Source of the DNA: Coemansia sp. RSA 487
Taxonomy: Eukaryota > Kickxellomycota > Kickxellomycetes > Kickxellales > Kickxellaceae
Reading direction: 5' to 3'
Assembly: GCA_027577595.1 (NCBI GenBank)
Contig: JANBRJ010000122.1
Coordinates: 1-43,940 of the forward strand
Length of the DNA stretch: 43,940 nt
The notes beneath the pieces are model-generated. The model was not told where the DNA came from, made no database searches, and was given only the letters and a program-made list of their open reading frames with translations. Of this stretch, positions 1 through 25,520 are shown piece after piece. How positions within the stretch are numbered: the first letter of the stretch is position 1; every line of letters begins with the position of its first letter. The position numbers were made by a program, and so were the translations under genes.

Positions 1-242
1 ATGCAGATTACTTGAAACAAACATATGGAATCAGCGACAAAATGGGAGTTATTTTGTTCAGGAAGCAAAAGTTCTTGACAATGGTCCCTGATATTCGTAT
101 TGACGAGAGCAAAAAGTTGAAACACTTTGCCAATGTACTAAATGAATTTGATACTTTGCCGGCTGAACCCAGTCCAAAGGAGCATCATGAGACTATAGCA
201 AAGAAGGCAGATGGTGGTTGTGGCTGCTGCACCATTCTCTAA
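1..242 (+). CDS. Thioredoxin-like prenylated small protein, paralogue 1 (5' part outside the window)
   Basis: This is the C-terminal part of a gene that begins before the window. The frame is open from position 3, reading A-D-Y-L-K-Q-T-Y-G-I, and it aligns with residues 67-75 of the next paralogue at 991. Visible parts are the block YGISDKMGVILFRKQKFLT (strand-turn-strand of a thioredoxin-like half), a helix with FANVLNEF, the subfamily motif P-A-E-P-S-P-K-E and the tail GGCGCCTIL. The last four residues, C-T-I-L, form a CaaX box whose terminal Leu favours geranylgeranyltransferase I. A second Cys directly before it could be palmitoylated. No CxxC redox motif is present in the visible part. 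The tail's presence and spacing make this a real gene; its biological role is unknown. Confidence 0.8.
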   Translation, partial: ADYLKQTYGISDKMGVILFRKQKFLTMVPDIRIDESKKLKHFANVLNEFDTLPAEPSPKEHHETIAKKADGGCGCCTIL

Positions 243-990
243 GGTGTAGTTTTTGCTTTCCTTTCATTTGTAGCAAGGATATTATAATTTATTTAGTTAT
301 TTTAATGACATACAACTCATTAGCATCTTTCCATTTATAGTGTTGGAAGCTAACTTTGTAGCATTTCTGCCCAACTAAATATTCAAACTACTTTTTTATT
401 TTATATACATGATGTTTTCCAAGGAAACAATAAATTTAGTAGAATGAAGGATATCCTAAACTATAAAGTATATCACCAGTGAGGAGGATTTGGCCCACTA
501 AAAGTTGGGACAGATACCAAAGGAGGTTCCAGTGTAGACAGAAAGCTCTATCTATTTTATTATCTTTAGTAAAGCTTTTGGGCTAAAACTAAGCTTCAAT
601 ATTGCAGTTGTGGGGGGTGGTTTTGGAGATTGAAAACACTTGGAAACATGACAGTATTTCGAGATATGCCACATGGAGGATGACATTTTCTAAACACATC
701 TCTATTTGTGATATGAAAAAGGCAGTATAAAGTGCCACAACAAGCTAGAATCTATAAAGCATTGTATAAAGTGGAAGAGGCTTTAGAAGCTTTCAATCTA
801 CCTTTGTTCTTCATGCAAACAGTGGACTGTTTGCATTGAAGGAAAAGGCAATGTATAACAAGTGTTTGTACTAGTTTATTTTTTTCCTTTTCAACTTTTG
901 TATTTTTCAATTATTCTTAATTTATATTATTTCAACAACCAACTATATCATTATTTAAACATTGGCCAAGAACTCAAACAAACTTAAAAT
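243..990. other. Intergenic, 748 bp
   Basis: AT-rich spacer between paralogues 1 and 2. I see no supportable coding region or RNA gene. The last 30 bases carry a short motif (966-979) that is shared with the leader of the paralogue at 3116. Confidence 0.6.
966..979 (+). promoter_or_regulatory. Shared leader motif CCAAGAACTCAAAC
   Basis: This 14-mer lies 11 bases before the ATG of the gene at 991. The gene at 3116 has the same motif with one change (CCAAGAACTAAAAC, 3090-3103), 12 bases before its ATG. The proteins are too diverged for this to be leftover coding similarity, so it may be a transcription-start or leader element. Its function is inferred. Confidence 0.4.
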
Positions 991-1470
991 ATGTCTGCAC
1001 CACTGCTAAACTCTGTTTGGCAAATTGAGAATAGAGTGAAGGAGCAAGATAAACTGCTTGTGTTCTATTTTCGCGGAATTGAACAAAAGGACGGGAATGG
1101 AACCAAAACATTGAAGAGGTTCATGCGCCTTGCCAAAAAAAAGGGATTTATTGCAGTACAGTGGAATAGCAATAAATCTGAAACTGTGGATTATTTCGAT
1201 GAAAAATATGGAATAGTGGGAAAAATGGGCATCGTCATGTATAGAGATCACAAGTACTTGACTTCTCTTCGCGGTATTCACACTGAAGAAGATGAAAAGT
1301 TTAAGCTTTTTGAGAAAGTACTGAATGAGTATGCATTGTGGCCAGTTCGGCCCAGTCCTAAAGAGTTTGCTGCTGCTAGGGCAAAGGCAGAAGAAAAACC
1401 AAAACCAAAACCAAAGCCACCTTCAAAGCCAACTCCTAAGCCTGAAGATGACTGCTGTATTATACTCTAA
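991..1470 (+). CDS. Thioredoxin-like prenylated small protein, paralogue 2
   Basis: A 159-residue protein that I cannot match to a named family. Residues 21-29 (KLLVFYFRG) resemble thioredoxin strand 1. A helix follows (about 38-50), then a strand (FIAVQWN, 53-59), a helix (VDYFDEKYG), and the block KYGIVGKMGIVMYRDHKYLT (72-91), which mirrors the KYGIRSIPTLLLFKDG region of thioredoxins. A final helix (FEKVLNEY) closes the core. The place of the CxxC site reads GIEQKD, and the cis-Pro position is not Pro, so no thiol-disulfide activity is expected. Next come the subfamily motif P-V-R-P-S-P-K-E (118-125), a Lys/Pro-rich spacer (KPKPKPKPPSKPTPKP) and the tail D-D-C-C-I-I-L. C156-I-I-L is a CaaL box for geranylgeranylation and C155 is a possible palmitoylation site. 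The likely site of action is the cytosolic face of a membrane; this is inferred. Confidence 0.85.
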   Translation: MSAPLLNSVWQIENRVKEQDKLLVFYFRGIEQKDGNGTKTLKRFMRLAKKKGFIAVQWNSNKSETVDYFDEKYGIVGKMGIVMYRDHKYLTSLRGIHTEEDEKFKLFEKVLNEYALWPVRPSPKEFAAARAKAEEKPKPKPKPPSKPTPKPEDDCCIIL

Positions 1471-2127
1471 TTAATCATTATTTTGCTCTTTCCTATAGGT
1501 TTCTATGTTCAGCTAATTAAGTTATTGTTTGCTGACAATGGGCAAAAGATTCGTTATCTTTTTGTCTTGGGTAACAGAATGTGGCGCCTAACTTTAGTGT
1601 TTTATGAAAACCACACACCCGAGCATCAACAGTATATGTAAATGTCGCGAATCAAATTAAATATTTAAATTGCTTTTTACTTTATTCACAGATTCCTTTT
1701 TTAAAAATGAATTTAACAGATGATCTATTTTGCGTGCGACATCGGAAACATGATAATCCAAGAAATGAAACAGAAATAAACTATGCGTGTCACGAGGAAG
1801 GAAGCTCAAACGCATGCATGCTATTTTGTCTAATATGAAAGGCCAAAGAACACCCCCAGTCTTAAACTGGGCCACTAATTATCAAGCTATATATAAATAA
1901 ACACATGGAAGTTTTATTTTTGGGTTTTGGCCTTATTCAGCAGTTAATTATATCGAGAACAAAGGCAAGAAACAAAATATATAATTCTGGCACCTTTTCT
2001 CTTGAACCTTCAACTTTATCCTCTTTTGTTCTGATATCCTTGCGTTTTTATTACTACTTCAGCGAATAAATTTGAACTAGTTATTAGTGCTATTTAACAC
2101 CAACTTTCTAAAGGCAGGCATAGTGAT
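1471..2127. other. Intergenic, 657 bp
   Basis: AT-rich spacer. A 72-codon open frame lies on the minus strand (1657-1875), but it has no recognisable motif and I do not call it. A strong TATA-like sequence lies at 1890-1899. Confidence 0.6.
1890..1899 (+). promoter_or_regulatory. TATA-like element (TATATAAATA)
   Basis: This is the only strong TATA-like sequence before the gene at 2128, but it lies about 230 bases from the ATG, farther than in other genes here (about 55-130). Either the 5' leader is long or the element is incidental. Confidence 0.3.
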
Positions 2128-2664
2128 ATGTGCGCAAAACTAGTAACCAATGTTAGCGATATTACAAATTTAATAGAAAATGAGAAAAAGTTCATATTGT
2201 TCTATTTCCGTGGGGCTGAACAGAAGAATGTAGATGGAATCAAGAGGCTAAGGGACTCTATGACCCTGGCCACTAAATACTTAATCCCCGCAAGGCAATG
2301 GAACACCAAAGACGGTGCAAAAGATTATTTCGTGGATAAATACGGTGTCAATGACGACATTGGCTTCATTATGTTTAGAGACGGGGAGTACTTGACAGCC
2401 ATCCGTGAACTTCGCAATGATAGCGACGAAAAGTTGAAGAAGTTCGAGGAAGTACTAAAAAGGTATAGCAGTTGGCCAGTTCGACCGAGTCCCAAACAGC
2501 ATTTGAAGGATTGGAAGTTAGACCAAGTGGTAAAAAATGCGGATAGAGCTAGCGCTGCCAAAAAAAATGAACAGGCAAAAAAAAATGCACGAAGAGAGAA
2601 AAGGAAAAAGATACCCAAAAAAATGCTTGAAAAGGTCGAGAGCGAATGCTGTGTTATTCTCTAA
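2128..2664 (+). CDS. Thioredoxin-like prenylated small protein, paralogue 3, with polybasic tail
   Basis: 178 residues, closest to the paralogue at 991. KKFILFYFRGAEQKN gives strand 1 with no cysteine at the redox site. IPARQWN, the helix AKDYFVDKYGV, the block DIGFIMFRDGEYLTAI and the helix FEEVLKRYSSWPV complete the core. The subfamily motif P-V-R-P-S-P-K follows. The C-terminus is extended by a strongly basic, probably helical segment (KKNARREKRKKIPKK and flanks, about 148-168) and ends E-C-C-V-I-L. A polybasic stretch just before a CaaX box is the arrangement K-Ras and Rho GTPases use to bind acidic inner-leaflet lipids, so a plasma-membrane location is plausible. The start is the first ATG; the next in-frame ATG would delete strand 1. 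Confidence 0.85.
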   Translation: MCAKLVTNVSDITNLIENEKKFILFYFRGAEQKNVDGIKRLRDSMTLATKYLIPARQWNTKDGAKDYFVDKYGVNDDIGFIMFRDGEYLTAIRELRNDSDEKLKKFEEVLKRYSSWPVRPSPKQHLKDWKLDQVVKNADRASAAKKNEQAKKNARREKRKKIPKKMLEKVESECCVIL

Positions 2665-2997
2665 GTTCATTTTTTTGCAGAGTATATTGCACGTTAATAG
2701 TACAGCTCTTTTTTATTTCATTTCTGTTGCAAGAGTGGACAATATGTTAATATCAGAAAGATGTGTATAAAGATAATGTCACTTTCCTCCTTTAGCATGC
2801 GCAGCATTTCAGTTCTTTTTTAAGAAGTGGATAAGAGGGCTAGGCGGTTGTGACACAGGGTAAATGTATGGTATCGGTTTTCTTTATGTTAAAAAGAGAA
2901 AGTGGACACCCTCTTTTCATCATTGTACCCGCCAAAAGGGAAAAATCCACTACAGTCAGCCAAGAAAAAGTTGAAAGTACAAAGGGTGGAAGTTGGA

Positions 2998-3003
2998 TAT
3001 AAA
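2998..3003 (+). promoter_or_regulatory. TATA box (TATAAA)
   Basis: TATAAA in the context GGATATAAACG, 113 bases before the ATG at 3116. The spacing matches the other TATA-like elements in this window. Confidence 0.5.
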
Positions 3004-3089
3004 CGACACCAAATATACTTTGCTTGGCCTGCTTTTCTATAGCTTTTCATACATACTTTTTTGCTATTCCACTTTATTATATTTGCGTA

Positions 3090-3103
3090 CCAAGAACTAA
3101 AAC
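3090..3103 (+). promoter_or_regulatory. Shared leader motif CCAAGAACTAAAAC
   Basis: 13 of 14 bases are identical to 966-979, and the distance to the start codon is almost the same (12 versus 11 bases). The minus-strand paralogue at 22669-23127 has a shorter match, CCAAGAA, starting 28 bases before its ATG. Confidence 0.4.
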
Positions 3104-3115
3104 GGCACTACAAAA

Positions 3116-3547
3116 ATGGCCCTTGTTATTAATTCCATTGCCAAATGCAAGGAGCTTAAAGACCTATCCAAGTATGCAGTGTTCTTCTTCTACACTCCCA
3201 ATACGATGAGCGCTGCCGACTTCCGCAAAAAGTTCGGGCCGCTCCTAAAGAAGGTTAGAACCAACAGGAATTTCAAATGCGGGCAGTTTAGCAAAGACGA
3301 CGTCGAAATCCCTCGCGCGGCCTTTGGATTCGAATCCGACCACGGCGTCATCTTCTACAGGGATGGCGTGTACTTGACGTTCATGCGCAACTTTGATGTC
3401 GACGAATTCAAGCGTATTACCGAGAACATTGACAATGAGCCGTATGCCAAGGTTGGCGGTATTACTACGAGGACAATCACGGTTGATGGAAAGACGATCG
3501 TTATCACTGGCAATGGTGCTATCAATGTCAACATTTGTACATCTTAG
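3116..3547 (+). CDS. Thioredoxin-like small protein, paralogue 4, without CaaX tail
   Basis: 143 residues. The core is AVFFFYTPNTMSAADF (strand 1 and helix 1), NFKCGQFSKDDVEIPR (strand 2), HGVIFYRDGVYLTFMR (the paired strands after the missing cis-Pro) and VDEFKRITENI (last helix). The strand-2 motif C-x-x-F-S-x-x-x-V-x-I-P is shared with the minus-strand paralogue at 21701-22213 and, loosely, with 22669-23127. So this gene is kin to the far array rather than to its neighbours. It then has a Thr/Val/Ile-rich beta-like extension and stops at N-I-C-T-S, with no CC-x-I-L tail. The reading frame after the stop does not encode one either. No CxxC is present. It may be a soluble member of the family; function unknown. 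The ATG sits in a good context 113 bases after a TATA box. Confidence 0.8.
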   Translation: MALVINSIAKCKELKDLSKYAVFFFYTPNTMSAADFRKKFGPLLKKVRTNRNFKCGQFSKDDVEIPRAAFGFESDHGVIFYRDGVYLTFMRNFDVDEFKRITENIDNEPYAKVGGITTRTITVDGKTIVITGNGAINVNICTS

Positions 3548-3646
3548 CCAGGTCTGTTTGTTTTGAGGGCACATGCTTCGCTAACATGTATATTTTAGCC
3601 ATATCACACCACCTCTCGCCATATATAGAATGCCGTTATTTTTAAC

Positions 3647-3652
3647 AATAAA
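3647..3652 (+). terminator. Poly(A) signal (AATAAA)
   Basis: AATAAA about 100 bases after the stop codon of the gene at 3116, in the short gap before the convergent Ca2+-ATPase gene. Confidence 0.45.
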
Positions 3653-3699
3653 TAGCCCATCTTTCTTTTATAGAACCAGTATAGAATAAAATAAAGAAT

Positions 3700-6600
3700 T
3701 TACTGCTTCTTCTTTTGCTGGCTGTCGACAACGCTGCTCTTCAGGGCAAGCGTCGCAGGCGGGTCAATAAACGTGCGGGCATACCACTTGAGAACTTCAT
3801 CGACAAGAATGATGGGGACCGAGATGTAAATAACGGCCTTCCACTCGAGCACGCCAAGCGGGGCGACGCTGAAGATAGTGTTGAAGAACGGGATGTAGAG
3901 GATTGCGAAATGCAAGACAAACGACAGCGCAACAGCTGCGATAAGCGACGGGTTGCGCCACAGCGGAACCTCCATCAGCGACGCGTTCTCGCTGAGCGAG
4001 TTCATTGCGTTGAACATCTCGATGCTGACAAGGATGCTCAGCGAAATGGTGCTGGCTACAATGGCATGGTACCCGCCGAAAGTGGCCGTGCAGTCGATGT
4101 GGTCGCTGAAGAGGCGCTCGCACTGGTGGAAGTGCGTCAGCTCGTGGTACGTTATTTGCGGGCCGGCGGGCGAGTAGATGTAGTGCCACGCGTATCCAAA
4201 GATGGTGGCTACGCCGACGTAGACGCCAATGATGGTGTAGCGCAGAAGAAGCCACCCGGAGACAAGAGGCTGCTTGGCGGACCGCGGTTTGTGCTGCATG
4301 ATGTGCGGGTCTGGTGGGTTGAAGCCCAGCGCGGTGGCCGGCAGCCCGTCGGTCACAAGATTGACCCACAGAAGCTGCACGGGGATCAGCGCCTCAGGCA
4401 TGTTGAGCAGCACCGTCAGGAAAATCGACACGACTTCGCCAATGTTGGACGAGATCAGATACCGGATGAACTGCTTGGTGTTGTCGTAGATCGACCGGCC
4501 CTCAGCCACCGCCATCTCGATCGTTGCAAAGTTGTCGTCGGCAAGCACCATGTCCGCCGCAAGCTTCGCTACGTCGGTGCCGGTTCCCATCGCAATGCCA
4601 ATGTCGGCCTTCTTCAGCGCCGGCGCATCATTGACGCCGTCGCCAGTCATCGCCACCACGTGGCCCGCCTGCTGGAGAAGCGTCACCAGCCGCATCTTGT
4701 GCTGCGGCTCGGTGCGCGCAAACAGCCGAGCGGTCTGGACGCACTCACGCTGCTCCTCTTCGCTCAGCGCATCGAACTCGGCGCCCGTGTAGCAAAGCTT
4801 GCTCTTGCCAGCATTGTCGCTGTCTTTTGTGTCGAGGACGCCAATCTCGCGGCACACGCTCTCGGCCGTCTGCTTGGAGTCGCCGGTGATGACAACCACA
4901 CGGATGCCGGCCTCGCTGCAGTGCGCAATCGACTCACGCACCTCGGGGCGCGGCGGGTCGTGCATCCCGACCAGCCCGACAAACGTCAGCTGCGACTCGA
5001 TCTTGTCGAGCCCCGCTCCCTGGCTCGCCGCAACCGCATCGCCAATCTCGCTGCTGCTGCCTGTGCGCACAGCAAGCGCCATCGTGCGCAGAGCCTGCGC
5101 CGACCCGAGCCGCATTGCCGCCGCCGAAATGTCTCCGCGCATAGCCTGCGTAAGCTCAACGACGGCTGCACCGACTTTGGCGTATGCGCAGCGCGCAAGC
5201 ACGTTCTCGGGCGCACCCTTGACAAGCAAATGTCCCTTGTCTGCGTCCTGCGGATCGCTGACCAGCACGGACATCGACTTGCGCTCGCGCGTGAACTCCA
5301 GCGTGGCCAAGCGCTTGTAGCGCTGATGCACCCACTGGCAGCACGCTTGCGCGCGGTCAGCGTTGGAGAGCTCTGCAAGCGTAGCGTTAAAGGCCGAGTC
5401 ATGCGTGCCGATCTTCTCGACCAGCACCCTGAGCGCAGCCTCCGTCGGCTCACCGACATGCGTGTGCGTGGCCTTTTCGTGGTTGTACGCAACAGTCGCG
5501 TCGTTGCACAGCGCGCTGACAAGAACCACATCGCGCAGCGCGTCTGTCGAGCCGGGAACAACGTGCGACTCGGCAGCTGCGTTTTGCACAGCGGTGCCGT
5601 GGCTGATGACCTGGCCCTCGGGCCCAAAGCTGGTGCCGGTGACTTCGAGCTCACGGACTGCCGAGTCGGAGCCGAGGACAATGATGCGCGACACCGACAT
5701 CTGGTTGGTGGTGAGCGTGCCGGTCTTGTCGGAGCAAATGATGCTGGTGCACCCGAGGGTCTCGACGCTGGGGAGCGAGCGCACAATGGCATTCTTCTCC
5801 GCCATGCGGCGCGTGCCCAGCGCCAGACACGTGGTGATGATCACGGCAAGCCCCTCGGGAATCGCAGCCACCGCCAGCGCCACAGCGATCTTGAAGTAGT
5901 ACACGGCGCCCCGCACCCAGCCGTGGTGCGACGCCTCGCCAAAGTGCCTGATGTTGATCACCCACACCAGGATGCACACAACCGTGATGACCTTGGCCAG
6001 CGTGTCGCCAAAGTCGTCCAGCTTCTTCTTCAGCGGCGTCTTCTCCGAGATCTGATCCGTGATCGACGAGTGGATGTCGCCGATGGCTGTCTTCGTGCCG
6101 GTGGCCGTCACCACGCAGCGCGCGCGCCCAAACACAACCGACGTGCCAGCAAACACCATGTTCACCTGGTCCTGGCACACGAGGCGCCCGCCGCTCTTCT
6201 CGGTCGCTGCGCTCAGCGCCGCAGAGGTCTTGGACACGCTGACAGACTCGCCCGTCAGAAGCGCCTGGTCGGCGCGCAGAACCGATGACTCGATTGCAAG
6301 GACACGCGCATCTGCAGGGATCTTGTCGCCGACGCTGATAACTATGATGTCGCCCGGAACCAGCTCTTCCGCATGGACCTTGATGATCTGGCCCTGGTTT
6401 CTGACGACACGGCACTCGTCGGGCGAGTACTCTTTCAGCGCAGCTATCGCGTTCTCCGCATTAGTTTCCTGCAGCACGCCCACCGTGGCGTTGGCTACAA
6501 GAATAAGCATAATCACCACCGGCTCAACATAGGCGGTCAGCTTGTCATTAGCCTCCTCGAAGAATGCGAGGACCAGCGATACGAGCGCAGACGCAAGGAG

Positions 6601-6792
6601 GATGATCACCAGCTGGTCCTGGAACTGCTCGACTATCAGCTCCCAGAGCGGCGTTGGCGGATCTTCGGGAAGCTCGTTGCGCCCGTACTTTTGCTGCCGC
6701 TCTTGTACTTGCGAAGTGGTCAGACCCTCGTCAGAAATGACGTGGAGATTGGCGAGGACCTGCTGTGTGGTTGCGCTGTACGCTACTTCCAT
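3700..6792 (-). CDS. SERCA-type Ca2+-transporting P-type ATPase
   Basis: A 1030-residue P2A ATPase that pumps cytosolic Ca2+ into the endoplasmic reticulum at the cost of ATP. Visible motifs are the actuator TGES (180-183), [10 protein letters not shown] in M4 (Ca2+ ligand Glu, about 308-317), the phosphorylation motif DKTGTLT with D355, KGAPE for nucleotide binding (524-528), DPPR (611-614), TGDGVNDAP (715-723), and the M6 signature [18 protein letters not shown], which is characteristic of SERCA rather than Pmr1 or PMCA. Length matches animal and plant SERCAs (about 1000-1050). The C-terminus is K-K-K-Q, which fits a KKXX ER-retrieval signal. The start codon lies 52 bases after a TATA box on the same strand. 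The coding strand is GC-rich at third positions, which creates a very long spurious open frame on the opposite strand. Confidence 0.97.
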
Positions 6793-7211
6793 TCTGTGCC
6801 TAATCTTTTTTCTATCTGTGGAATTTATGAATAAAAAGCCCCTTTTTTATAGAGTAGCGAATGATTAATGAAAAGAAAACGAAAACGAAAAAGAGAAAAG
6901 AAAAAAAGCTTGATGAAAAAAAAAACGCAACACGACTGCTATCTCTTTCAACAACTGCTGAAGAATGTTGGGCTGGTATAAAGGTCGTGTTACTTGGCTT
7001 TCCAGCATCAAGCAATGGGGGAGGGAGAGGAGCTTCTCACACTATTCGTACTCTCGTGCCTTCACAGTCATCGGCTGTTTCCCATGCCTGTCACACGTCA
7101 CATGCATGCAACAGCACATAAATCACAAGCATATAGTAACGTATTGACCCAGTTCATCTGATAGTTAATAGATAGAATTTTTGTACAAATATGTAGCAAG
7201 CTTATGCATTA
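6793..7211. other. Intergenic, 419 bp
   Basis: Upstream region of the Ca2+-ATPase, purine-rich on the plus strand near 6870-6930, plus the 3' flank of the minus-strand gene that follows. No gene seen apart from a TATA box. Confidence 0.6.
6844..6851 (-). promoter_or_regulatory. TATA box of the Ca2+-ATPase gene
   Basis: Reads TATAAAAA on the minus strand, 52 bases before the ATG at 6792. Confidence 0.5.
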
Positions 7212-7679
7212 TCAAAACTCAGTGCTGTGGCCATAAAGCTGCGATGTGCGCTGCTGTGGCAACGCAGCTTGTGTATTGTACGGTATCGTTTGGGGTTGAG
7301 TAGAAGAGTACGGCATCGTTTGTGGTGGTATAGTCTGCTGTGGCATTGGTGGAACAATAACATACGGCTGGCTTTGGCGACGAGCCTGCATCTGCTGAGC
7401 TTCATAAGCGTGGGGCGGCAGTTGAGGTAACGCGTGACTCGGAGGAGCTTGAGCTTGAGCTTGGGCTTTTTGTTGAGCTTCTTCAAGCTGCTTGAGCTCT
7501 GCGGCCTTTTTTTCTGCATCTCTTTCTTCCGCATTTATCCTCCGGCCCTTGCAGCGAAGGCGCCAGAGCACACAGCCTAGAATGAATGCTACGATGAGCG
7601 CTAAACCGAAGAAAATGGCAAAGATGACGCCAATGATGGCACCGGTGCTGAGTTTGCTGAGATCTGCGATTTCAGTCAT
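7212..7679 (-). CDS. Single-pass membrane protein with Gln/Pro-rich tail
   Basis: 155 residues of unknown function. A short polar N-terminus (1-11) is followed by one long hydrophobic helix (about 12-39, AIIGVIFAIFFGLALIVAF and beyond). A basic stop-transfer stretch with cysteines follows (CVLWRLRCKGRR), then a charged, probably coiled segment rich in Ala, Glu and Lys (49-72). The tail (75-155) is disordered and rich in Gln, Pro, Tyr and Ser. The positive-inside rule puts the long tail in the cytosol. The segment PYVIVPPMPQQTIPPQ holds several short proline motifs that could bind SH3 or WW domains. Such an architecture resembles fungal cell-wall or polarity adaptors, but there is no extracellular sensor domain. 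A TATA-like element lies about 125 bases before the ATG. Confidence 0.7.
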   Translation of the reverse strand: MTEIADLSKLSTGAIIGVIFAIFFGLALIVAFILGCVLWRLRCKGRRINAEERDAEKKAAELKQLEEAQQKAQAQAQAPPSHALPQLPPHAYEAQQMQARRQSQPYVIVPPMPQQTIPPQTMPYSSTQPQTIPYNTQAALPQQRTSQLYGHSTEF

Positions 7680-8065
7680 TATTTTCTCTCTTGTGAATAA
7701 AAATACGCTTTAAAGTTGTAATAGTATAGAAAAATTATGTTAGGTAAACTGGATATACAAAAAAAAGGTAGAGGAAGCAAGTAGCAAGTCGTTCTTTCAT
7801 CCATATTATATAAAGTCTCGTTGGTTTTTTTTATAAACATCTGTGGACATGAAAAGAAAGCGAAAGGGGCGCTAAAAAAAGAGTAACAAGAAAGAGAGGA
7901 GTTGCTTTTTTAAAAACACAATATTTCTGATATTGTTTGCAAAAAGGCAAGATCTGGCTTTTACACATAGAAAGTAGAAAAAAGAATAGATAGACATGGA
8001 AAACGGGTAAAAAGGGTTCTAGGAAAGATAAAGGAAAATAATCCATAAAAAGTACAAAGATATTT
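7680..8065. other. Intergenic, 386 bp
   Basis: Spacer between two minus-strand genes; AT-rich, with a TATA-like sequence (TTTATATAA on the minus strand, 7804-7812) for the gene at 7212-7679. No other feature seen. Confidence 0.55.
7804..7812 (-). promoter_or_regulatory. TATA-like element (TTTATATAA)
   Basis: Lies 125 bases before the ATG at 7679, similar in spacing to the other TATA boxes in the window. Confidence 0.4.
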
Positions 8066-15780: not shown

Positions 15781-15850
15781 CTGGGCTGTTCCTGTGTTCT
15801 CGTCTTCTATTTTCTGTACGTCTCTTCTTTTTAAATCGAATAAACAATAG

Positions 15851-17157: not shown

Positions 17158-17394
17158 TTTGTCAATAGTGAAAAAAAAGAAACTCGATTGTTTTTTTTAT
17201 GGAGAAAGATTAGAATATAAACAAAAAAAGTACTACAAAAATAACGCGTATTGTAAAAAAAGCAAAAAAAAAAGTAAATGCGCTCTGTTCTGTTTCGTTT
17301 CGTTGAAAAACGCATTAAACGCGTTTCGAGCACAGAAACAAATGATCTGAAAAAAAGACATAATTTAATTGAATCAACAAGAGTAACAAATAGG

Positions 17395-18048
17395 TTATAG
17401 GATCAAAGCAACGATATCCCTAGGTGACACTCCATCGTTATCCCTAATATCCATTGACGCACCATTGCGGATCAGAAACGACACAGCTTTTCTATCTTGA
17501 GCCATCAGCGCCTCATGCAAAGCAACGCCACCAAACCTAGACCTATGGTTGACGTTGGCTCCCAACTCCAGTAACACTGATGCCAAATCAAGTCTCGAGT
17601 GACTTGTTTGCGAAGCTCGCATGAACGCAGTAAACCCGCCGACATCGGCTGAATCAACCGATACGTTTATTTCCCCGAGAAATCGCAAACATGCTCCGTG
17701 ATCAGGGGCCCTACTGCCCCCCTGCTGGTGGTGTCGCGAGGACGCTACGTAGTATTGTGCTCCTGCTATCACTACCTCCATTGCTGGCATCAGTATCCGT
17801 GTTTCCTGCATGTCCTCGTATATGCGGGCTGCCTCTAATGGCCCCACTGTGGTTGAGAGCTCGGTGTAGTCGTCCTTGAGCGCCTCAATGTCTCCGCGCA
17901 CCAGCGGCTGCGCACGCGTGCTGAATTGGCGTGCATCAAATACCCATTCGGCTATCCATTCGCGCAAAATGCGCTGCTCGGCCCCGGCTAGCGGCGATGT
18001 GCCTAGCACAAGCTGGTCGGCGGAACGGGGCTCGGAGCCAGCAGTCAT
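17395..18048 (-). CDS. Ankyrin-repeat protein
   Basis: 217 residues. The N-terminal half (1-100) is helical and matches nothing I recognise. It includes AEQRILREWIAEWVFDARQF and GPLEAARIYEDMQETRILMP. From about residue 118 there are ankyrin repeats: CLRFLGEINVSVDSADVGGF, TAFMRASQTS plus LDLASVLLELGANVNHRSRF, and GGVALHEALMAQDRKAVSFL followed by IRNGASMDIRDNDGVSPRDI. The typical helix-turn-helix and G-A-x-x-x-x-x-x-x-x-G spacing are clear in the last two. Ankyrin repeats bind protein partners; the partner is unknown. A link to ankyrin/MYND proteins is possible, but no zinc-finger follows before the stop. A TATA-like element (AATTTATA on the plus strand, 18222-18229) lies about 175 bases before the ATG. 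Confidence 0.8.
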   Translation of the reverse strand: MTAGSEPRSADQLVLGTSPLAGAEQRILREWIAEWVFDARQFSTRAQPLVRGDIEALKDDYTELSTTVGPLEAARIYEDMQETRILMPAMEVVIAGAQYYVASSRHHQQGGSRAPDHGACLRFLGEINVSVDSADVGGFTAFMRASQTSHSRLDLASVLLELGANVNHRSRFGGVALHEALMAQDRKAVSFLIRNGASMDIRDNDGVSPRDIVALIL

Positions 18049-19505
18049 CCTGTGTCTTTGGAATGCTGGAGTGGTTTGCGAGGATGGGAAGGGATGGTGT
18101 AAGTGGTGGTGGGAGATGGAGGGGAACAGGCTGCTTTGGCATTCATGTGCTGCTCAAGGGGAAATAAAAATAAAAAAGTAGACGTGGTATTGCGTTTCCC
18201 ATTGCCCTTCTTCAGAAGGACAATTTATAGGAGATGAAAAAGGGATAAGGGGATAAGAAAAGTCCGTTTCGCTAGAACGCTTGATGATCGCCCACAGAAA
18301 GGAAAGGTTGGCTGGAAAAAGCGGGAGAAATAGAGAAACCCTCCCCATGCAAACAATCGAGAAACAAGAATAACGCACATACTCACACGGGCAAAAGGCG
18401 CATTTTCTTGGCTTCTTATTGTCGTTTCCGTTTTGTTCTTTTCTGGAACAAATGGCGTTCGTTCATTGTGCGTGATCGAAAACCATTTTTAGAAAAGCAG
18501 GAGATGAGGAGGAAAAAAGGAGTAGGGGTTAGAGAGGAGACGACGACATATCTGCCATTTGGTAACATTGAATAACCTTTTCTCTTCTTCTTTTGACTTG
18601 CGTTCAATGTAAAAGATGGAATTCTCGATCACTGGCATACAATTGCTCGCAGCATTCCAATTCATATTTTTTGCTACAGAAAGCAATTGTCTTTTGTACA
18701 GAGCATAGTCGGGATGGAAAAGACAAATAATAAACCAAGCCCGATTGTTTACGTTTTTGCGCTTGGATTCCAAGAGGCTTTTCCCCCCCCCTTTCTTGAT
18801 TGTAAGGAGTGGCGCCCTGATGTTCTCTTCAAGCGGTAGCAAAACTCTTTTTGAAATCAAAAACAAACAACAGGCTTCATAGTCAATGATCGTCTGTCTT
18901 TTGGGATTCTCAGCTGGTGTCCAGATGTTTTCGAAACACAACAAGCTGACATACATGCTTTTTTGCGCAGTTGTTTACCAACATCAATGTCGTGCATAAA
19001 TTGACCTGTTTATGCAACATACTTTCGTAAACAAAGGAAGGGCAGAATGGATCACTCTTTCCCACTCAGCAAGAAGACAGGCGCTATAACCTCACACAAA
19101 TGTGAATGAGGAAAGCAAAAGCGCCTCCATGTTTCTGTTCTGCATCTGATCGAGCGAAAGGTGGAAAGGATAGCTTTTTGCTGCAAGCTGAAGACAAAAA
19201 TAAACTCTGCCCCACACCCAATGATATCCCCTCCCCTCCTCGGTTCTTGACTTTTTTTTTCTATCCCAACAAACACGAGTTTACTGATCTTTCGCACACA
19301 TATTTATCCAAAGCTGTTTTACTCCCAGCCCTTTGGGCTTGGCGGGATCACTTACTTGGTTTTCCTTTTGGAAGCGCTGATTGGTTGATTGATAAGAAGG
19401 GAACAAAAAGGCCAGAAAAAAGTCCAATTTTTTTTTCCACTTTTGCCTTCACTTTCATTTTGAATTCTTCGCAACTAACCTTATTTGCTACATAATAGAC
19501 TGTAG
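18049..19505. other. Intergenic, 1457 bp
   Basis: Large divergent spacer between the ankyrin gene (minus) and the NAPE-PLD-like gene (plus). It holds a 155-codon frame on the minus strand (18489-18956) and a 129-codon frame on the plus strand (19106-19495). Both are AT-rich, lack recognisable domains and are not called. No tRNA or other RNA recognised. Confidence 0.5.
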
Positions 19506-20762
19506 ATGGGCAGAGCATTTGGAATCGGCCTCAGCTGGCTTAAACTAGGACGCAGCAGTGTGTCGGTGTACTGCGTGGGCGCAATAGCAGGCGTCACAGC
19601 GTACTTTTTGATCTCGGACCGGTGGATATCGTCACAGCGGCGTTTAATAATAGCCGAAAGGCAAAGTACGCAAAAAAGCAGCGCAAACCCACACCGGTCT
19701 CTGCTCATCGGCGGCCGCTACGTTAATCCGTTTGACTCGTGGCGTGACAAAACGCTTTGGGACTTTGTGTGCTGGCTGCTAACACGTACGGCCGGAAACG
19801 GGTTGCCTGTTGACAGAAGCCAGCTGGAAACCGACTTGCCTCTGGCCACGCCCCATTACCCGCTTCTGCAACATCTTGCAGGCCACCTACGCAACGACCC
19901 AGACGTAGTCGTCGATGACACGGATTTGCTTTACTCGGATTATCCGGCAATGGCCGATATCGACAAGGAGGCGGCAGTCACAGCAACGTGGATTGGCCAG
20001 TCCACGTGCTTTGTGCAGCTGGAAGGGCTCAACATCCTGACGGACCCTATTTTCAAGCAGCGGACCGTATTCTCGTGGCTGGGACCCGAGCGCCTGCGCC
20101 CGGCGCCTTGTCGCCTCGAGGATCTTCCGCAACCAGACATTGTGCTTGTGTCGCACAACCACTTTGACCACCTGGATGTCGATGTTGTCAAAGCGCTAGG
20201 AAACTCTGTCACTTGGTACGTGCCTTTAGGGCTGCGGCAATGGTTTGCACGCCAAGGTATTTACCGTGTCAAGGAAATGGATTGGTGGCAGGAGTCGGAG
20301 TATGCGGCACCTAATGGCCGCAAGTACCAGATCGTATCGACTCCCACGCAGCACTGGAGTGGACGCACGGGGCTCGACAGCAACGCTTCCCTGTGGTCTA
20401 GCTTCCTCGTCAAGGGCTCGCGGTCGTCTGTATTCCATTGCGGCGACACAGGTTACTGCCCTGCATTCAAGCGCATTGGCCAGCTCTATGGACCCGTCTC
20501 GCTGGCCATCTTGCCTATCGGAAGCTACGAACCACGCTGGTACATGTGCCACCAGCACATTAATCCAGAGGACGCCGTGCTAATCCATCGCGACTTGGGT
20601 GCGCGCAAGTCTATTGGCGTCCACTGGGGCACCTTCATGATGTCCGACGAGCATTACTTGGCGCCTCCCCGTGATCTGGCTGCTGCTGCTGCTAAGCACG
20701 GTCTGGATGACGATGAGTTTGTGGCTCCGCAAATCGGCAGAACAAATTTGTATACTTTCTAA
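19506..20762 (+). CDS. FMP30: N-acyl-phosphatidylethanolamine phospholipase D-like metallo-hydrolase (Fmp30 type)
   Basis: 418 residues of the metallo-beta-lactamase fold. The family hydrolyses N-acylphosphatidylethanolamines to N-acylethanolamines and phosphatidate; yeast Fmp30 sits in the mitochondrial inner membrane and affects cardiolipin. A basic N-terminus with one membrane helix (about 18-37, VSVYCVGAIAGVTAYFLI) fits this location. The fold starts with TATWIGQSTCFVQLEGLNIL, followed by the di-zinc motif H217-N-H-F-D-H222-L-D. A second-shell set is HCGDTGYCP (metal Asp), then AILPIGSYEPRW and the last His in SIGVHWGTF. PTQHWSGRTGLDSN is diagnostic of the NAPE-PLD branch. The chosen ATG is needed to keep the membrane anchor. 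Confidence 0.93.
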   Translation: MGRAFGIGLSWLKLGRSSVSVYCVGAIAGVTAYFLISDRWISSQRRLIIAERQSTQKSSANPHRSLLIGGRYVNPFDSWRDKTLWDFVCWLLTRTAGNGLPVDRSQLETDLPLATPHYPLLQHLAGHLRNDPDVVVDDTDLLYSDYPAMADIDKEAAVTATWIGQSTCFVQLEGLNILTDPIFKQRTVFSWLGPERLRPAPCRLEDLPQPDIVLVSHNHFDHLDVDVVKALGNSVTWYVPLGLRQWFARQGIYRVKEMDWWQESEYAAPNGRKYQIVSTPTQHWSGRTGLDSNASLWSSFLVKGSRSSVFHCGDTGYCPAFKRIGQLYGPVSLAILPIGSYEPRWYMCHQHINPEDAVLIHRDLGARKSIGVHWGTFMMSDEHYLAPPRDLAAAAAKHGLDDDEFVAPQIGRTNLYTF

Positions 20763-20984
20763 GCTTTAATTCATAGACTTTCATGTACCGTGTTCTGCTT
20801 TATTCGTGTGGGTGGGGTCAATTCTATTTCTGCTTCTGCCTCCCACAATTTTAGTCGCAGAGTTTTAGAGTATAGCACCATTTCTATCACGCGGGCGAAT
20901 GGAGCGCCTTCACAAATAAAGACACCTTTACATGTTTTCTGATGTAATCTTTTATTCTTGTAGAAAACTAGTAGAAAGAATATA

Positions 20985-21674
20985 ATGAGAATTGCGGTCT
21001 TTGGCGGTCTAGCACCAATCCCCAGCGAGTTTGTCGTCCAAGCAATGGAGGCCGGGCACACAGTGACATGGTTCATCGGCACCGACGACGCCTTACCCGA
21101 CCCTGCCCTTGAAACTGACTACGGCGAGATCCTACGCATCGAGCGCGGCGCCTGGGATGACGACATCAACAGGTACTGCGAAATTGTGCAAGGGAGCGAC
21201 GCAGTCTTCGTATCCTTTACGCCTGAGCATTTCGGGCCGCTTGAGTCGTGGGTGCCGCAGCAAAAGATGATCCAGCATGCGATGCTCAAAGAGGCTGTCA
21301 AGCGCATCGTGCTGGTCACTATGCACGGAGCAGGCGATTCGGCCAGACGTTTGGACTGGGCTGCGTGGGCCCGGCTCAATGCAAACCAGGTCTTTTATTC
21401 GCTTGCCGGCCGTCTCTCCCCGTGCTGGTCGCTGGCGGCCCAGTATTCGGCGCAAGAACAGGTTGTTAGCGATGGTGAGCTTGATTGGACGGTCCTGCGT
21501 CCAACCCTAGTCACCGATGGCCCAGCCACAAACACATACTTGGCCAGCGCAAAGGACGTATTTGGCGGGTATATCAGCGCGGCTGATGTCGTTGACTGTG
21601 CGCTAAAGGCGCTGGTCGACAACATGGATGTCAAAACAGCGTTCTCTATTGCTTACTCGTCTAGAGTGGCCTGA
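20985..21674 (+). CDS. NAD(P)-binding NmrA-like / atypical SDR protein
   Basis: 229 residues with a Rossmann fold. Strand 1 and the dinucleotide loop read MRIAVFGGLAPIPSEFVVQA, where the usual G-x-x-G-x-x-G is reduced to G-G with no third Gly. Later strands are GSDAVFVSFTPEHFGPL and VKRIVLVTMHGAG. AAQYSAQEQVVSDGELDWTVLRPT is typical of NmrA/NAD(P)H-binding (PF13460-like) proteins, where 'DWTVLRP' is a hallmark. The end, GYISAADVVDCALKALVD, is also typical of that family. Such proteins act as redox sensors or as quinone or biliverdin-type reductases; the substrate is not deducible. The Y-x-x-x-K catalytic pair of classical SDRs is not evident. It starts 222 bases after the Fmp30-like gene, same strand. 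Confidence 0.82.
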   Translation: MRIAVFGGLAPIPSEFVVQAMEAGHTVTWFIGTDDALPDPALETDYGEILRIERGAWDDDINRYCEIVQGSDAVFVSFTPEHFGPLESWVPQQKMIQHAMLKEAVKRIVLVTMHGAGDSARRLDWAAWARLNANQVFYSLAGRLSPCWSLAAQYSAQEQVVSDGELDWTVLRPTLVTDGPATNTYLASAKDVFGGYISAADVVDCALKALVDNMDVKTAFSIAYSSRVA

Positions 21675-21700
21675 CCCCCTCCAGAAAATTCTGCATGGGC

Positions 21701-22213
21701 TTAGAGGATTAGACAGCACTTGTCATTGCTGTTATTGCTTGAGGGCAGCGGAGGAAGTTCTTTGTCCAAGCGAGATGGCCGTGGCTGTATATCGATGTTG
21801 ATATCCGTAGCGTTGCTGTCCAACTTGATGGTAACTGGTGCGTTTTTGCAACCTTTGGCTTTTTCCCCTTCTTTTTTCCCTTCTCCAACTACTTGCTCAA
21901 AGATGCGTGCAAACTCTTTGACGTCATAGCCGTTCATAACAGCGACTCTTTCCTTGTTGCGGTAAAAAATTACGCCTCTATCAGGCGCCTCCTTGGAAAT
22001 GTCCTGTGGAATAGTGACATGCTTGCTGCTGAACCTCTGGCATCCGTAGTCTTTGTTGCGCTTGCCAATGATGTGGGCAATGAGGCTGTTGGTGCTTGAA
22101 TTGTAGTCATAGTACGTGACTGTCTGGTGGTTGTAGTACGCAAGTGCTGCATACTTGTACTGCCCAATGAATGTTTCAACCTCGCCTGGAGTGACCAAAC
22201 CGCCGCCGTACAT
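21701..22213 (-). CDS. Thioredoxin-like prenylated small protein, paralogue 5
   Basis: 170 residues from MYGGGLVTPGEVET. The frame is open 29 codons farther upstream, but that part encodes a Leu/Phe/His-rich stretch unlike the paralogues. Core: YKYAALAYYNHQ (strand 1), helix, YGCQRFSSKHVTIPQ (strand 2 with the C-x-x-F-S-x-x-x-V-x-I-P motif), RGVIFYRNKERVAVMNGYDV (strand pair) and FARIFEQVVGE (helix). Then a beta-like, Asn/Asp-rich extension (VTIKLDSNATDINIDI), resembling the end of the gene at 3116, a proline-containing linker (ELPPLPSS), and D-K-C-C-L-I-L. No CxxC redox site. C-terminal C-L-I-L predicts geranylgeranylation. It lies 27 bases from the convergent NmrA-like gene. Confidence 0.83.
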   Translation of the reverse strand: MYGGGLVTPGEVETFIGQYKYAALAYYNHQTVTYYDYNSSTNSLIAHIIGKRNKDYGCQRFSSKHVTIPQDISKEAPDRGVIFYRNKERVAVMNGYDVKEFARIFEQVVGEGKKEGEKAKGCKNAPVTIKLDSNATDINIDIQPRPSRLDKELPPLPSSNNSNDKCCLIL

Positions 22214-22668
22214 TTTGTTTAACAAGTAGTGAAACAAATGAAAGTGTAAATGGAAAAGTGGAATTAGACTGGAAAGCAAAAATATGGGGGAAAAAAGCAC
22301 TGCTCCCCAGGAAATATTGGCTTTTTGTAGAATATTTCTCGCTCTTTCCTCGTTCTTCTTTCCTTTTTTTTTGCGAGGTATCTCTATTTAGTATAAAGAT
22401 ACGTGTACAATGATGGAAGGATATTCTCTTATTTCCTTTTATATCTCTGGTTTCAGCATTCGAAAGAGCAGGAGACAAAGTAAAGATGTGTGCTAACTAT
22501 AACCCTTTCCAAATTTGTCCTATGGACCCTATAGTAGACATCTCCATATCTCACAATGTTAATGAATCCTTTAGTTATTGCATGTAGAAAATAAAAACAC
22601 AATAGTTGAAAGAATATTGAATGGGAATAGAACTGAAAACTAAAATATAATATGTCCATGGGCAGAGC
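22214..22668. other. Intergenic, 455 bp
   Basis: Promoter region of paralogue 5 and 3' flank of paralogue 6; AT-rich, no gene recognised. Confidence 0.55.
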
Positions 22669-23127
22669 CTAGAGAATTAGACAACACGAAGAGTTATCTC
22701 CGCGATATTCAACTTTACTACCATTAGCGTCAAGGGTATATGGCTTTTGGCACTTGGCGCCTGATTTACCCTCTTTATTAAGCTCTCTATTATTTCCTAG
22801 TTTGATTACTTCCTCAAAGTTATTTTTAACTTCGTCAGTTCTATGGTTATTTATAAGAGATATCACCTTGCCCTTGTAAAAAATAGCCACACCATTGTAT
22901 TGTGCAAACTTGGCAAATTTTTTTGGAAATGGAACATACTTTCTGCTGCATCTTCTGCACATAAATTTGGGATTGACCTTTCTGGCCTGTTTGATGAACG
23001 CGGCAGAGGACACCTCAAATTTTTCGACATTAACATTGCTGGGGTTGAAGAAAACAAGTACCGTATACGTGTGGGTGGTGATGAAATGATCCACCTGGTC
23101 TTTAGAGGCCAAATATCTGCCAACCAT
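22669..23127 (-). CDS. Thioredoxin-like prenylated small protein, paralogue 6
   Basis: 152 residues. Core: HTYTVLVFFNPSNVNVEKF (strand 1 and helix), KFMCRRCSRKYVPFPKKF (strand 2), NGVAIFYKGKVISLINN (strand pair) and VKNNFEEVIKLG (helix). The segment MCRRC contains a C-x-x-C, but it sits at the end of strand 2, not after strand 1 where thioredoxin has its active site. It aligns with the single Cys of the paralogues at 3116 and 21701, so I do not read it as a redox centre. A tail with CQKPYTLDANGSKVEYRGDN is followed by S-S-C-C-L-I-L, a CaaL box preceded by a second Cys. Codon use is markedly AT-rich. A TATA box lies 126 bases before the ATG. Confidence 0.83.
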   Translation of the reverse strand: MVGRYLASKDQVDHFITTHTYTVLVFFNPSNVNVEKFEVSSAAFIKQARKVNPKFMCRRCSRKYVPFPKKFAKFAQYNGVAIFYKGKVISLINNHRTDEVKNNFEEVIKLGNNRELNKEGKSGAKCQKPYTLDANGSKVEYRGDNSSCCLIL

Positions 23128-23577
23128 TTGTATTTATCTAGCAGTGTTTTCTTGGCAAATTGAGAAAATAACAAAGCGCGAAAGAAAGTTGGGAGGGGGG
23201 GCAAATTGAAGGTTGAAAGCTGAAAACAGCACATTTGCCCATCTACTGCCTTTATTTTATAGACTAATTTACCGCGCTCTTTTCATTACTTGTGATATCT
23301 AGCCATTTCCTATAATGACACATGTGCACAGCTATCAGAGTATCACTTTTAAACCATTTTATTCATTTCTTGATCCAAGTGTTTTGCAAAAAAAGGAGGG
23401 GGAGTGTGAAACAGTAGTTGTTAGCGTGCAGTTATTCAGTTCTGCTCACAAACAGACACATTTATTTCTGCCAATGTAAAAAAAATCATTGCTTTTCCTT
23501 TACATGTGGAATCTACAAAGAAAATAAAGGGTGTACAAAGCACACATCCCGCTCCATGAATTCCTCTATTGCCTTCC
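23128..23577. other. Intergenic, 450 bp
   Basis: Promoter of paralogue 6 (TATA box at 23253-23261) and 3' flank of paralogue 7. No gene recognised. Confidence 0.55.
23253..23261 (-). promoter_or_regulatory. TATA box (TATAAAATA)
   Basis: On the minus strand, 126 bases before the ATG at 23127. Confidence 0.5.
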
Positions 23578-24147
23578 CTACCTAGTGGTGTTCCGCCTAA
23601 GCAGCCCTGGAAAAAGCCTAGCGGACAAGCTTCTTCCGGTCATTCCCAACGAAGGAGGCAGCGGCCTACTGTTGGGGGTTTCACTCTCCATTGCAGTTTT
23701 CGAGACTGGAGCCTCCACGAGGACTGGAGCACCCTTCCGCTTCCCCCACGAACTGTCATAGCTGTCGCTCATATCGACCAGCGTTGTCGACTGGCGAACC
23801 ATAGTCGGCTGGTGCTGTCCAGTCGGATCGCCAAAGAGGAGTTCAATATAGTCGCTGAGGATGCGCCTATCGAACGTTGCAAAAGCACATGCCATGCCGG
23901 TTTCGTCAAATAGTGCTACACCTACGGGTGACGCAATGTTTTGCGATGTGGACATCTGGTCATACGCGTCTCCATATATAACAGCATAGCGGGAAATGCC
24001 AAGGGAATCCAGATGCGACATTAATGGATACGCTTCGTATACCAGCTGGTGCACTTTCTCGGCCGAGCCCTTGACATAGAGCAGGATGCATTTCCCTGCG
24101 CTTACGAACTTTTCATACTTTTCTGCATTGTTCAATGTTGCGTACAT
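23578..24147 (-). CDS. Thioredoxin-like small protein, paralogue 7, divergent and without CaaX tail
   Basis: 189 residues. It lies within the minus-strand array and keeps the core order: KCILLYVKGSAEKVHQL (strand 1 and helix), ISRYAVIYGDAYDQ (strand 2), VGVALFDETGMACAFATF (strand pair) and DYIELLFGD (last helix). The S-P-V-G part holds a Pro close to, but not at, the thioredoxin cis-Pro position. There is no CxxC. From about residue 110 it has a Ser/Thr/Pro-rich, basic, probably disordered tail that ends R-R-N-T-T-R, with no cysteine near the end, so it cannot be prenylated. It is the most diverged member; membership rests on position, size and strand pattern. Function unknown. Confidence 0.7.
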   Translation of the reverse strand: MYATLNNAEKYEKFVSAGKCILLYVKGSAEKVHQLVYEAYPLMSHLDSLGISRYAVIYGDAYDQMSTSQNIASPVGVALFDETGMACAFATFDRRILSDYIELLFGDPTGQHQPTMVRQSTTLVDMSDSYDSSWGKRKGAPVLVEAPVSKTAMESETPNSRPLPPSLGMTGRSLSARLFPGLLRRNTTR

Positions 24148-24522
24148 TTTTCTTTATAAACTTTTAAACCCAGAATAATAAGGAATTGGACATGTAGAAA
24201 TGGTGAATATATGAACTGCGGCGAAGAGAGAAAGAGAGAAATTGTGCTTTGCTTTGATGCTAGTTGTTTGGCCTTCCCCCCTCTTACCGAGTTGTTTTGA
24301 CTGTATATGGTGGAAAGCATTTAAATGATAAATTAATAACACAAAAGTCATTAGATTTTCGTCAACCGCAACCTAAAAATCCACTCTAGTGTTTGTGCAA
24401 AATGGAAGCTTAATGGCAATGTAGAACCCCCTGCTGGTTTCCCCATCCCCAACCAAACATACAATACCCAAAGAAAAAAAGCCAATTTAATAAAATATAC
24501 ATACAATGGTAACCTTTTATTT
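24148..24522. other. Intergenic, 375 bp
   Basis: Spacer between paralogues 7 and 8. AT-rich; no gene or RNA recognised. Confidence 0.55.
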
Positions 24523-24906
24523 TTACAGGATAACACAGCACTCGCAGCAATCGTCTCCATCGGATTTCTTTTTCAGCGATGTCAAAGGATCAAAATTTTG
24601 CAGCTTTTCCTTGAAATCCTTGATTGCAAAGCCGTCAAGGACATCGACAAGCGTCTCACTTTTAAAGAAAGCAACGCCTTGCTCCGGCTCAATCTCATAT
24701 TCCTTGCGCAGTTCTTTGGTGAATTCGCGGCGCGTGCATGTGTAGTTAAAGAAACCCTTGCTCACCAAATGCCATGTGGCTTCGTCGCTTGCAATCCGGA
24801 ACTCGAGCAGCCGCGAGAAGTCTTCATGCACGAAAAATATGATACTGTAGTTCTTCTTGATATACTCTTCAAGCATTGATTTGGATGTAATTGGATGTGG
24901 AAACAT
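24523..24906 (-). CDS. Thioredoxin-like prenylated small protein, paralogue 8
   Basis: 127 residues, a close sister of the next gene (25134). Both begin M-F-x-x-P-I-x-S-K-x-M-L. Core: KNYSIIFFVHEDFSRLLEFR (strand 1 and helix 1), NYTCTRREFTKELRKEY (strand 2 and helix), QGVAFFKSETLVDVLDGF (strand pair), IKDFKEKLQNFDPL (helix). The CxxC position after strand 1 reads H-E-D-F, so no redox activity is expected. The end, SLKKKSDGDDCCECCVIL, has four cysteines: a C-V-I-L prenylation box and three further Cys that could be acylated. A TATA-like sequence (TATATATT, 25022-25029 on the minus strand) lies about 117 bases before the ATG. Confidence 0.83.
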   Translation of the reverse strand: MFPHPITSKSMLEEYIKKNYSIIFFVHEDFSRLLEFRIASDEATWHLVSKGFFNYTCTRREFTKELRKEYEIEPEQGVAFFKSETLVDVLDGFAIKDFKEKLQNFDPLTSLKKKSDGDDCCECCVIL

Positions 24907-25021
24907 TTTCGTTACGAATGAAAAAAAATACTAACCAAATCAAAAATAAAATTAAAAGCTGGAGGGAAAAAGTAGTCAAGGAAGGAAAAGTGATCAATGC
25001 ACATCCAAGTGAAAAAACATG

Positions 25022-25029
25022 AATATATA
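25022..25029 (-). promoter_or_regulatory. TATA-like element (TATATATT)
   Basis: About 117 bases before the ATG of the gene ending at 24906, matching spacing in the rest of the array. Confidence 0.35.
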
Positions 25030-25133
25030 GAAATGTATGCAAGCTTGTTTGAAACAAGAAACCCTTTGTTTTCCTATTTAATGAATGTATCCAATAACTA
25101 CTCCAACGCATAAAAAGAACAGAATGAGTTTTT

Positions 25134-25520
25134 TTACAGAATAAGACAGCAAACATTCGTGCCTTTTTTTTTCTTCTTTGGATCCGGAAGCTTCTTATTC
25201 GGATCAAATGCAGTCAGCGTCTTTTTGAATTCTTCCAAATCAAAGCCCTGCATCTCTTTGACAAGCGTATTATTCTTGACAAAGACCACGCCCTCGGTTG
25301 CCTTAATCTTGAGCAACGCGCGCAAATGGCCAGTCCAGCCAAGACGAACACACGTGTAGTTGAGGTACCGCTGGTTTATCAAGTGCCACACCGCAGGATT
25401 GCAAGCACGCCGAAACTCCAGCAGTCGGTCGTGGTCCTCGCGCACCATAAAGATAATCGCATAGTCGCTGTCCAAGTATTTGGTCAGCATGGCTTTTGAC
25501 TTTATAGGGTCTGAAAACAT
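25134..25520 (-). CDS. Thioredoxin-like prenylated small protein, paralogue 9
   Basis: 128 residues from MFSDPIKSKAMLTKYL, chosen because it matches the start of the gene at 24523; the frame is open 23 codons more but encodes an unrelated hydrophobic stretch. Core: DYAIIFMVREDHDRLLEFRR (strand 1 and helix 1), NYTCVRLGWTGHLRALL (strand 2 and helix), EGVVFVKNNTLVKEMQGF (strand pair), LEEFKKTLTAFDP (helix). It shares with paralogue 8 the patterns R/H-E-D-x-x-R-L-L-E-F-R, A-x-W-H-L, and N-Y-T-C. The tail has a basic run (DPKKKKKGTN) and ends V-C-C-L-I-L, a polybasic-plus-CaaL arrangement for plasma-membrane targeting. No CxxC at the active-site position. Confidence 0.84.
   Translation of the reverse strand: MFSDPIKSKAMLTKYLDSDYAIIFMVREDHDRLLEFRRACNPAVWHLINQRYLNYTCVRLGWTGHLRALLKIKATEGVVFVKNNTLVKEMQGFDLEEFKKTLTAFDPNKKLPDPKKKKKGTNVCCLIL

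Follow-up and report, generated by a model that had tools for sequence, protein, structure and literature searches.

A family of small genes, with members in two clusters, lies in the first 25,520 positions of a 43,940-nucleotide stretch of Coemansia sp. RSA 487 DNA (contig JANBRJ010000122.1; hereafter the window, or C122 among the 184 contigs of this 17.79-Mb assembly). The family is real and apparently undescribed. With a probability of roughly 55%, its sequences point to geranylgeranylated, redox-dead adaptors of thioredoxin fold that reside at the cytosolic side of Ras/Rho membranes. Directly seen are the genes, their family relationship, a conserved tail, constraint between paralogues, a matching transferase gene and, on Ras and Rho-like GTPases of this genome, the same kind of tail.

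All nine open reading frames (ORFs) listed in an initial annotation of the window were retrieved at their positions, as were its seven CC-x-I-L tails (seven of nine ORFs). Counts and tail assignments refer to ORFs read unspliced. Members are named below by their first coordinate, the piece at the contig end by its frame.

1..242, plus strand: 3' portion of a family gene that the contig end interrupts (frame 3-242), tail CCTIL (ORF, alignment).
991..1470, plus strand: family gene, 159 residues, Pro/Lys-rich linker, tail CCIIL (ORF, alignment).
2128..2664, plus strand: family gene, 178 residues, very basic linker, tail CCVIL (ORF, alignment).
3116..3547, plus strand: family gene, 143 residues, unspliced ORF ending NICTS, no CaaX box (ORF, profiles).
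21701..22213, minus strand: family gene, 170 residues, tail CCLIL, with relatives in three strains of Coemansia (ORF, database search).
22669..23127, minus strand: family gene, 152 residues, tail CCLIL, CRRC in the middle-strand region (ORF, alignment).
23578..24147, minus strand: least certain member, 189 residues, ending RNTTR, no CaaX box (ORF, profiles).
24523..24906, minus strand: family gene, 127 residues, tail CCVIL (ORF, profiles).
25134..25520, minus strand: family gene, 128 residues, tail CCLIL (ORF, profiles).

The proposal of a single family in two clusters that expanded within a lineage is supported, its homology by profile tests. A profile of the first array (A3) aligned with one of the second cluster plus 3116 and without 23578 (A4) at a probability of 96.8% (hhalign, E 2.4e-10). 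The 3116/21701/22669 type matched both the 991 type (93.0%) and the 24523/25134 type (96.1%), which scored 5.6% against each other, and 3116-3547 emerged as the sequence bridge between the clusters. In leave-one-group-out hmmsearch runs with four groups on 749 ORFs, including those of the family and a background enriched in thioredoxin loci, the left-out 991, 3116/21701/22669 and 24523/25134 types were recovered with best E values of 5.8e-8, 1e-10 and 6.2e-10, respectively. The 23578 type reached 0.5 to 3.5% in hhalign with each of the three other groups and a best E of 1.8e-4 when left out (7e-4 for the window gene, only 0.22 to 1.9 for three of its five members). As the weakest group in both comparisons, it makes 23578 the family's least certain member. 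Neighborhood support for its membership comes from its position in the cluster and from three database proteins (P0005, P0006 and P0007) in which parts of the 24523/25134 and 23578 types are joined, although such models may have arisen by merging neighboring genes.

The only invariant residue in the nine-sequence alignment is the Gly of a paired-strand block. The motif assigned to this block, G-[VI]-x-[FM]-[YF]-[RK]-[DN], fits the plus array (e.g., GFIMFRD in 2128 and GVILFRK in 3-242) and 21701, and holds only loosely in 22669 (GVAIFYKG), 23578 (GVALFDET), 24523 (GVAFFKSE) and 25134 (GVVFVKNN). Across nine paralogue pairs, dN (nonsynonymous divergence) ranged from 0.30 to 0.76, and dS (synonymous divergence) was computable in five (1.2 to 3.0) and saturated in four. 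The dN/dS ratios of the five computable pairs, rough as they are, lie between 0.10 and 0.59 and suggest that these are genuine coding genes subject to net constraint.

The predicted loss of redox chemistry was confirmed at the level of residues. No CxxC occupies the active-site position in any of the eight testable window proteins (that region is missing from the 3-242 piece), and none of the nine has Pro immediately before the invariant Gly, where a cis-Pro would be expected; the residues there are M, I, M, H, R, N, V, Q and E. In the 23578 type, a Pro lies one residue ahead of that position. The pair of features that defines a catalytic thioredoxin, i.e., CxxC after the first core strand and the cis-Pro, is missing from these window proteins. 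Other CxxC motifs occur in the middle-strand region of 22669 (CRRC) and in the tail of 3-242. A Cys in the middle-strand region is common to 3116, the 21701 type, 22669, 24523 and 25134, and is missing in the 991 and 23578 types.

The C-terminal tails read CCTIL, CCIIL and CCVIL in the plus array and CCLIL, CCLIL, CCVIL and CCLIL in the minus array. Genome-wide, CC-x-I-[LF]-stop occurs at 28 sites versus 6 for the backward control, and nine of the 28 are family genes (seven in the window and two on contig C44). With introns ignored, the other 19 fall on five ORFs longer than 60 residues and 14 of at most 59. The five long ones are a Ras-like ORF on C77 (CCLIL), three GTPases on C79, which we read as Rho-like, and a 206-residue ORF on C48; Pfam returned Ras for both GTPases scanned among the four with CC-x-I-L tails. 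The genome also encodes the beta subunit of geranylgeranyltransferase I (GGTase-I; L076), along with those of farnesyltransferase and GGTase-II, all named by their best PDB match. A C-terminal C-a-a-L box in a genome with GGTase-I, the signature of a GGTase-I-type CaaX protein, was found in seven of the nine window members and in two on C44. CCLIL is kept in all four proteins of the 21701 type despite linkers of differing length and sequence, an argument that the tail is in use. From these features we infer that the family proteins are prenylated in the cell.

Several observations accompany the survey of tails and linkers. The three C79 genes (L060-L062, ~72037-74120, minus strand) are tandem Rho-like GTPase genes about 1 kb apart with tails CCSIL, CCSIL and CCVIL, one of them Pfam-checked (Ras). 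Two similar Cys/His-rich ORFs of 50 and 47 residues (L072 on C147 and L073 on C150) end in CCTIL and CCIIL, lie between 1.3 and 1.6 kb from the start of their contigs and are possibly exons of another small CaaX protein. In 3116-3547, GT at 3537 and AG ending at 3598 delimit, by eye, a candidate 62-base intron that would swap the end NICTS for CRYF. The 23578 type, devoid of a CaaX box, shares a C-terminal RSLSAxLF and a basic end in four of its five database relatives, the model of the fifth (P0006) ending early; this end is perhaps another membrane-binding element. SH3-ligand linkers were considered and set aside: KxLPxLP occurs in three of the four 21701-type linkers, a hint only, and P0003 has no such motif. 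Shuffled versions of these four linkers contained an SH3-like motif at rates of 8 to 16% each, against 73% for the Pro-rich 991 linker, and six of the 11 linkers tested showed neither KxLPxLP nor an excess over shuffles.

The thioredoxin-like core is the part of the initial annotation that stood only in part: the sequence relation in the proposed register is supported, and the fold itself is unsettled, as profile scores beat the controls yet are weak in absolute terms. We consider a thioredoxin-like fold probable, supported but not proven. A core profile of 22 sequences was compared with 15 thioredoxin domains of the same genome, PF00085 having found 20, of which five divergent or partial ones were left out. 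The hhalign score of 22.9 was reached by none of 200 column shuffles (maximum, 17.2) and exceeded those of the reversed core (15.4) and the highest-scoring of 96 decoy segments taken from other genes of the window (16.9). Positive controls scored 29.6 (PDI b), 18.7 (PDI b'), 31.1 (L038) and 35.0 (L039) against the same set. Group by group, shuffles reached the real score once in 200 for the 991 type and never in 200 for 3116/21701/22669. In both local and global mode, the invariant Gly aligns with the residue following the cis-Pro, the very register put forward earlier for the paired-strand block.

Other searches also returned thioredoxin-related matches. Five of seven PDB matches of profile A2 are named thioredoxin or glutaredoxin (top, GLRX3 2wz9, E 0.0019), as are six of 13 for A10, which also matched 2nbs, presumably of the same group, and three of nine for A9; the six matches of reversed A10 include no thioredoxin. 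Sub-threshold Pfam/NCBIfam matches comprise, among unrelated names, HyaE and bacilliredoxin AbxC, which we take to be thioredoxin-fold proteins. In three of the leave-out searches the Grx3/4-like L032 was the best non-family ORF (E 0.016 to 0.068); in the remaining one it came second (0.014) to a thioredoxin ORF found in two overlapping loci (0.011). One unexplained 88-residue ORF came close behind in one such search (E 0.055). A crude estimate of secondary structure gave the same order of elements in the family as in the thioredoxin control.

A number of results weigh against the fold or the shared anchor. The hhalign probability of the combined core against thioredoxins is just 15.6%, only four of the 22 single sequences beat the best decoy, and shuffles reached the group score in 10 of 200 cases for 24523/25134 and in 96 of 200 for 23578. 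Neither A3 (four PDB matches) nor A4 (eight) retrieved a thioredoxin on its own, and a designed epitope scaffold is the top PDB match of both A9 and A10. No family protein scanned reached a Pfam/NCBIfam cut-off, the lowest E being 0.0033 for an unrelated family below its cut-off. The tail is missing in two of the nine window members (3116-3547 and 23578-24147).

Relatives were sought among 5.77 billion proteins by a method that needs shared five-residue words and can miss distant relatives. Profile A2 retrieved five proteins at E <=1e-3 among 969 candidates and A5 ten at E <=0.1 among 1330, and A3, i.e., the first array alone, found none among 1561 candidates in this word-based search. All matches with a named source are from Coemansia, in five strains (RSA 1933, RSA 2559, RSA 2049, RSA 1200 and Benny D160-2); P0001, P0004 and P0008 correspond to the window's own genes. 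Three strains show synteny of the second cluster, with consecutive locus tags in RSA 1933 (000986/000987), RSA 2559 (002932/002933) and RSA 1200 (000903/000904). Each tag pair consists of a 21701 type and a 23578-type part, and in two strains the latter is fused with a part of the 24523/25134 type. Judged by these matches, the family seems restricted to the Coemansia lineage. Literature listings on prenylated thioredoxin-like proteins and on Coemansia/Kickxellales families contained no description of this family.

The first (plus-strand) array extends past window position 1 onto contig C44, which carries the following copies:

L014:3501-4031 and L014:4597-5115: intact family genes, tails CCVIL and CCIIL (ORFs).
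~L014:5562-6300: decayed family copy with a CCIIL-coding remnant.
L014:6981-7334: truncated family copy, 117 residues.

The final 77 bases of C44 are identical to window 928-1004, and the opening 77 bases of the window to L014:7174-7250. Window 1-1004 and L014:7174-7733 thus share exact 77-base overlaps at both ends with differing sequence in between, the pattern of an assembly bubble. Therefore, C44 and C122 most likely adjoin, and the gene cut by the contig end would exist in two versions, one truncated and one longer with CCTIL, representing alleles or tandem copies.

The favored explanation envisages a small cytosolic protein with a thioredoxin-like domain devoid of CxxC and cis-Pro, a variable linker and, mostly, a CC-x-I-L box. 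GGTase-I would geranylgeranylate the second Cys, after which the last three residues would be removed and the Cys methylated; the first Cys is perhaps palmitoylated, and basic linkers perhaps help membrane binding. The protein would thereby be placed on the cytosolic face of the membranes used by Ras and Rho, with the former active-site face serving as a protein-binding surface. It might act as a membrane-tethered adaptor or as a competitor for a partner. The location, the adaptor role and any Ras/Rho link are inferences.

Other explanations fit parts of these data. The core could be a small alpha/beta fold unrelated to thioredoxin, such as the ferredoxin-like fold of HIPP HMA domains, which would leave the tail and the adaptor-like design unchanged. 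The low absolute scores and the failure of A3 and A4 alone to match a PDB thioredoxin speak for such a fold; however, an own-genome HMA profile scores 8.9 with the core versus 22.9 for thioredoxin, so the HMA/ferredoxin-like candidate is not favored, and with shuffle, reversal and decoy controls on the side of thioredoxin we deem an unrelated fold unlikely. It is more doubtful still that the proteins remain chemically active through the single middle-strand Cys, as thiol sensors or metal/Fe-S binders at the membrane. Its retention in five members or types, its place within CRRC in 22669 and a Grx3-type domain as the closest thioredoxin relative are compatible with this idea, but the Cys is off the active-site position and missing in the 991 and 23578 types, and there is no cis-Pro.

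Just as improbable in our judgment is that these genes encode self/non-self or strain markers, or decoys, whose variability is maintained through gene birth and death. Lineage restriction, a first array without relatives in its database search and gene turnover in the form of a decayed copy, a truncated copy and two gene versions at the contig junction would agree with it. Against it stand the gene order of the second cluster, conserved across strains, and a dN/dS that stays below 1 in all five pairs for which it could be computed. For the two versions of the cut gene (window 3-239 versus L014:6981-7331), dN/dS is 1.9 but covers 52 codons, not enough to claim positive selection.

The proposed membrane-anchored adaptor design has partial precedents. 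The initial annotation knew of no named family that combines a thioredoxin-like core with a CaaX tail, but one exists: the animal protein MIEN1 (C17orf37; Pfam Rdx, SelW-like), whose solved structure is a thioredoxin-like fold, ends in CVIL, a geranylgeranyl-type box (PMC3527542). It differs in its redox-active CxxC, the Coemansia family having none at the active-site position. Membership in that family was discarded, with no Rdx (PF10262) match in the family proteins scanned and an hhalign score of 9.0 between own-genome Rdx and the core. The one Rdx (SelW/MIEN1-family) gene found (L085:1489-1863, on C70) has CTGC and ends CPNY, with Cys at the CaaX position in a noncanonical box.

The thioredoxin domain of Grx3/4 (PICOT) is the best or near-best relative in both PDB (2wz9 with A2) and the genome (L032). 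Grx3/4 differs in having glutaredoxin domains; L032 combines Pfam thioredoxin and glutaredoxin domains and ends ESIAK, without CaaX. The non-catalytic b domains of PDI are redox-dead thioredoxin folds, and own-genome PDI L041 reads GIDVPGIVVYK at the equivalent block; a specific relation was set aside at an hhalign score of 13.1 (0.5%), with a profile built on two sequences only. TXNL1 is not known to carry a CaaX box. This thioredoxin-like protein is reported to act on the Rab5 membrane cycle via GDI; it differs in carrying CGPC, and GDI binding needs the full-length protein (PMC2043495). Plant HIPPs are described as an expanded family with an HMA domain, a variable, often Pro-rich linker and a CaaX tail, some members acting by metal-independent protein binding, and as unique to vascular plants (PMC10459601). 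The Coemansia family resembles it in its expansion and in the order of small domain, variable linker and CaaX tail. The family proteins scanned have no HMA (PF00403) match, and membership was dismissed on this and on the HMA profile score given above.

On a bolder and rather unlikely view, these would be lipid-anchored recognition modules of catalytically dead thioredoxin fold, forming a family shaped by gene birth and death and located at the same membranes as Ras and Rho. They would be the fungal equivalent of plant HIPPs, with one cluster conserved and the other array changing fast and possibly holding strain-specific decoys or markers. If fold and lipid are confirmed, Coemansia would represent an independent lineage that turned a non-catalytic small alpha/beta domain into expanded membrane-tethered binding modules, in parallel to the use of HMA domains by plants. 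The family would then provide a testable case of gene turnover in early-branching fungi, whose lineage-specific families are hardly studied, and possibly a new type of partner at Ras/Rho membranes.

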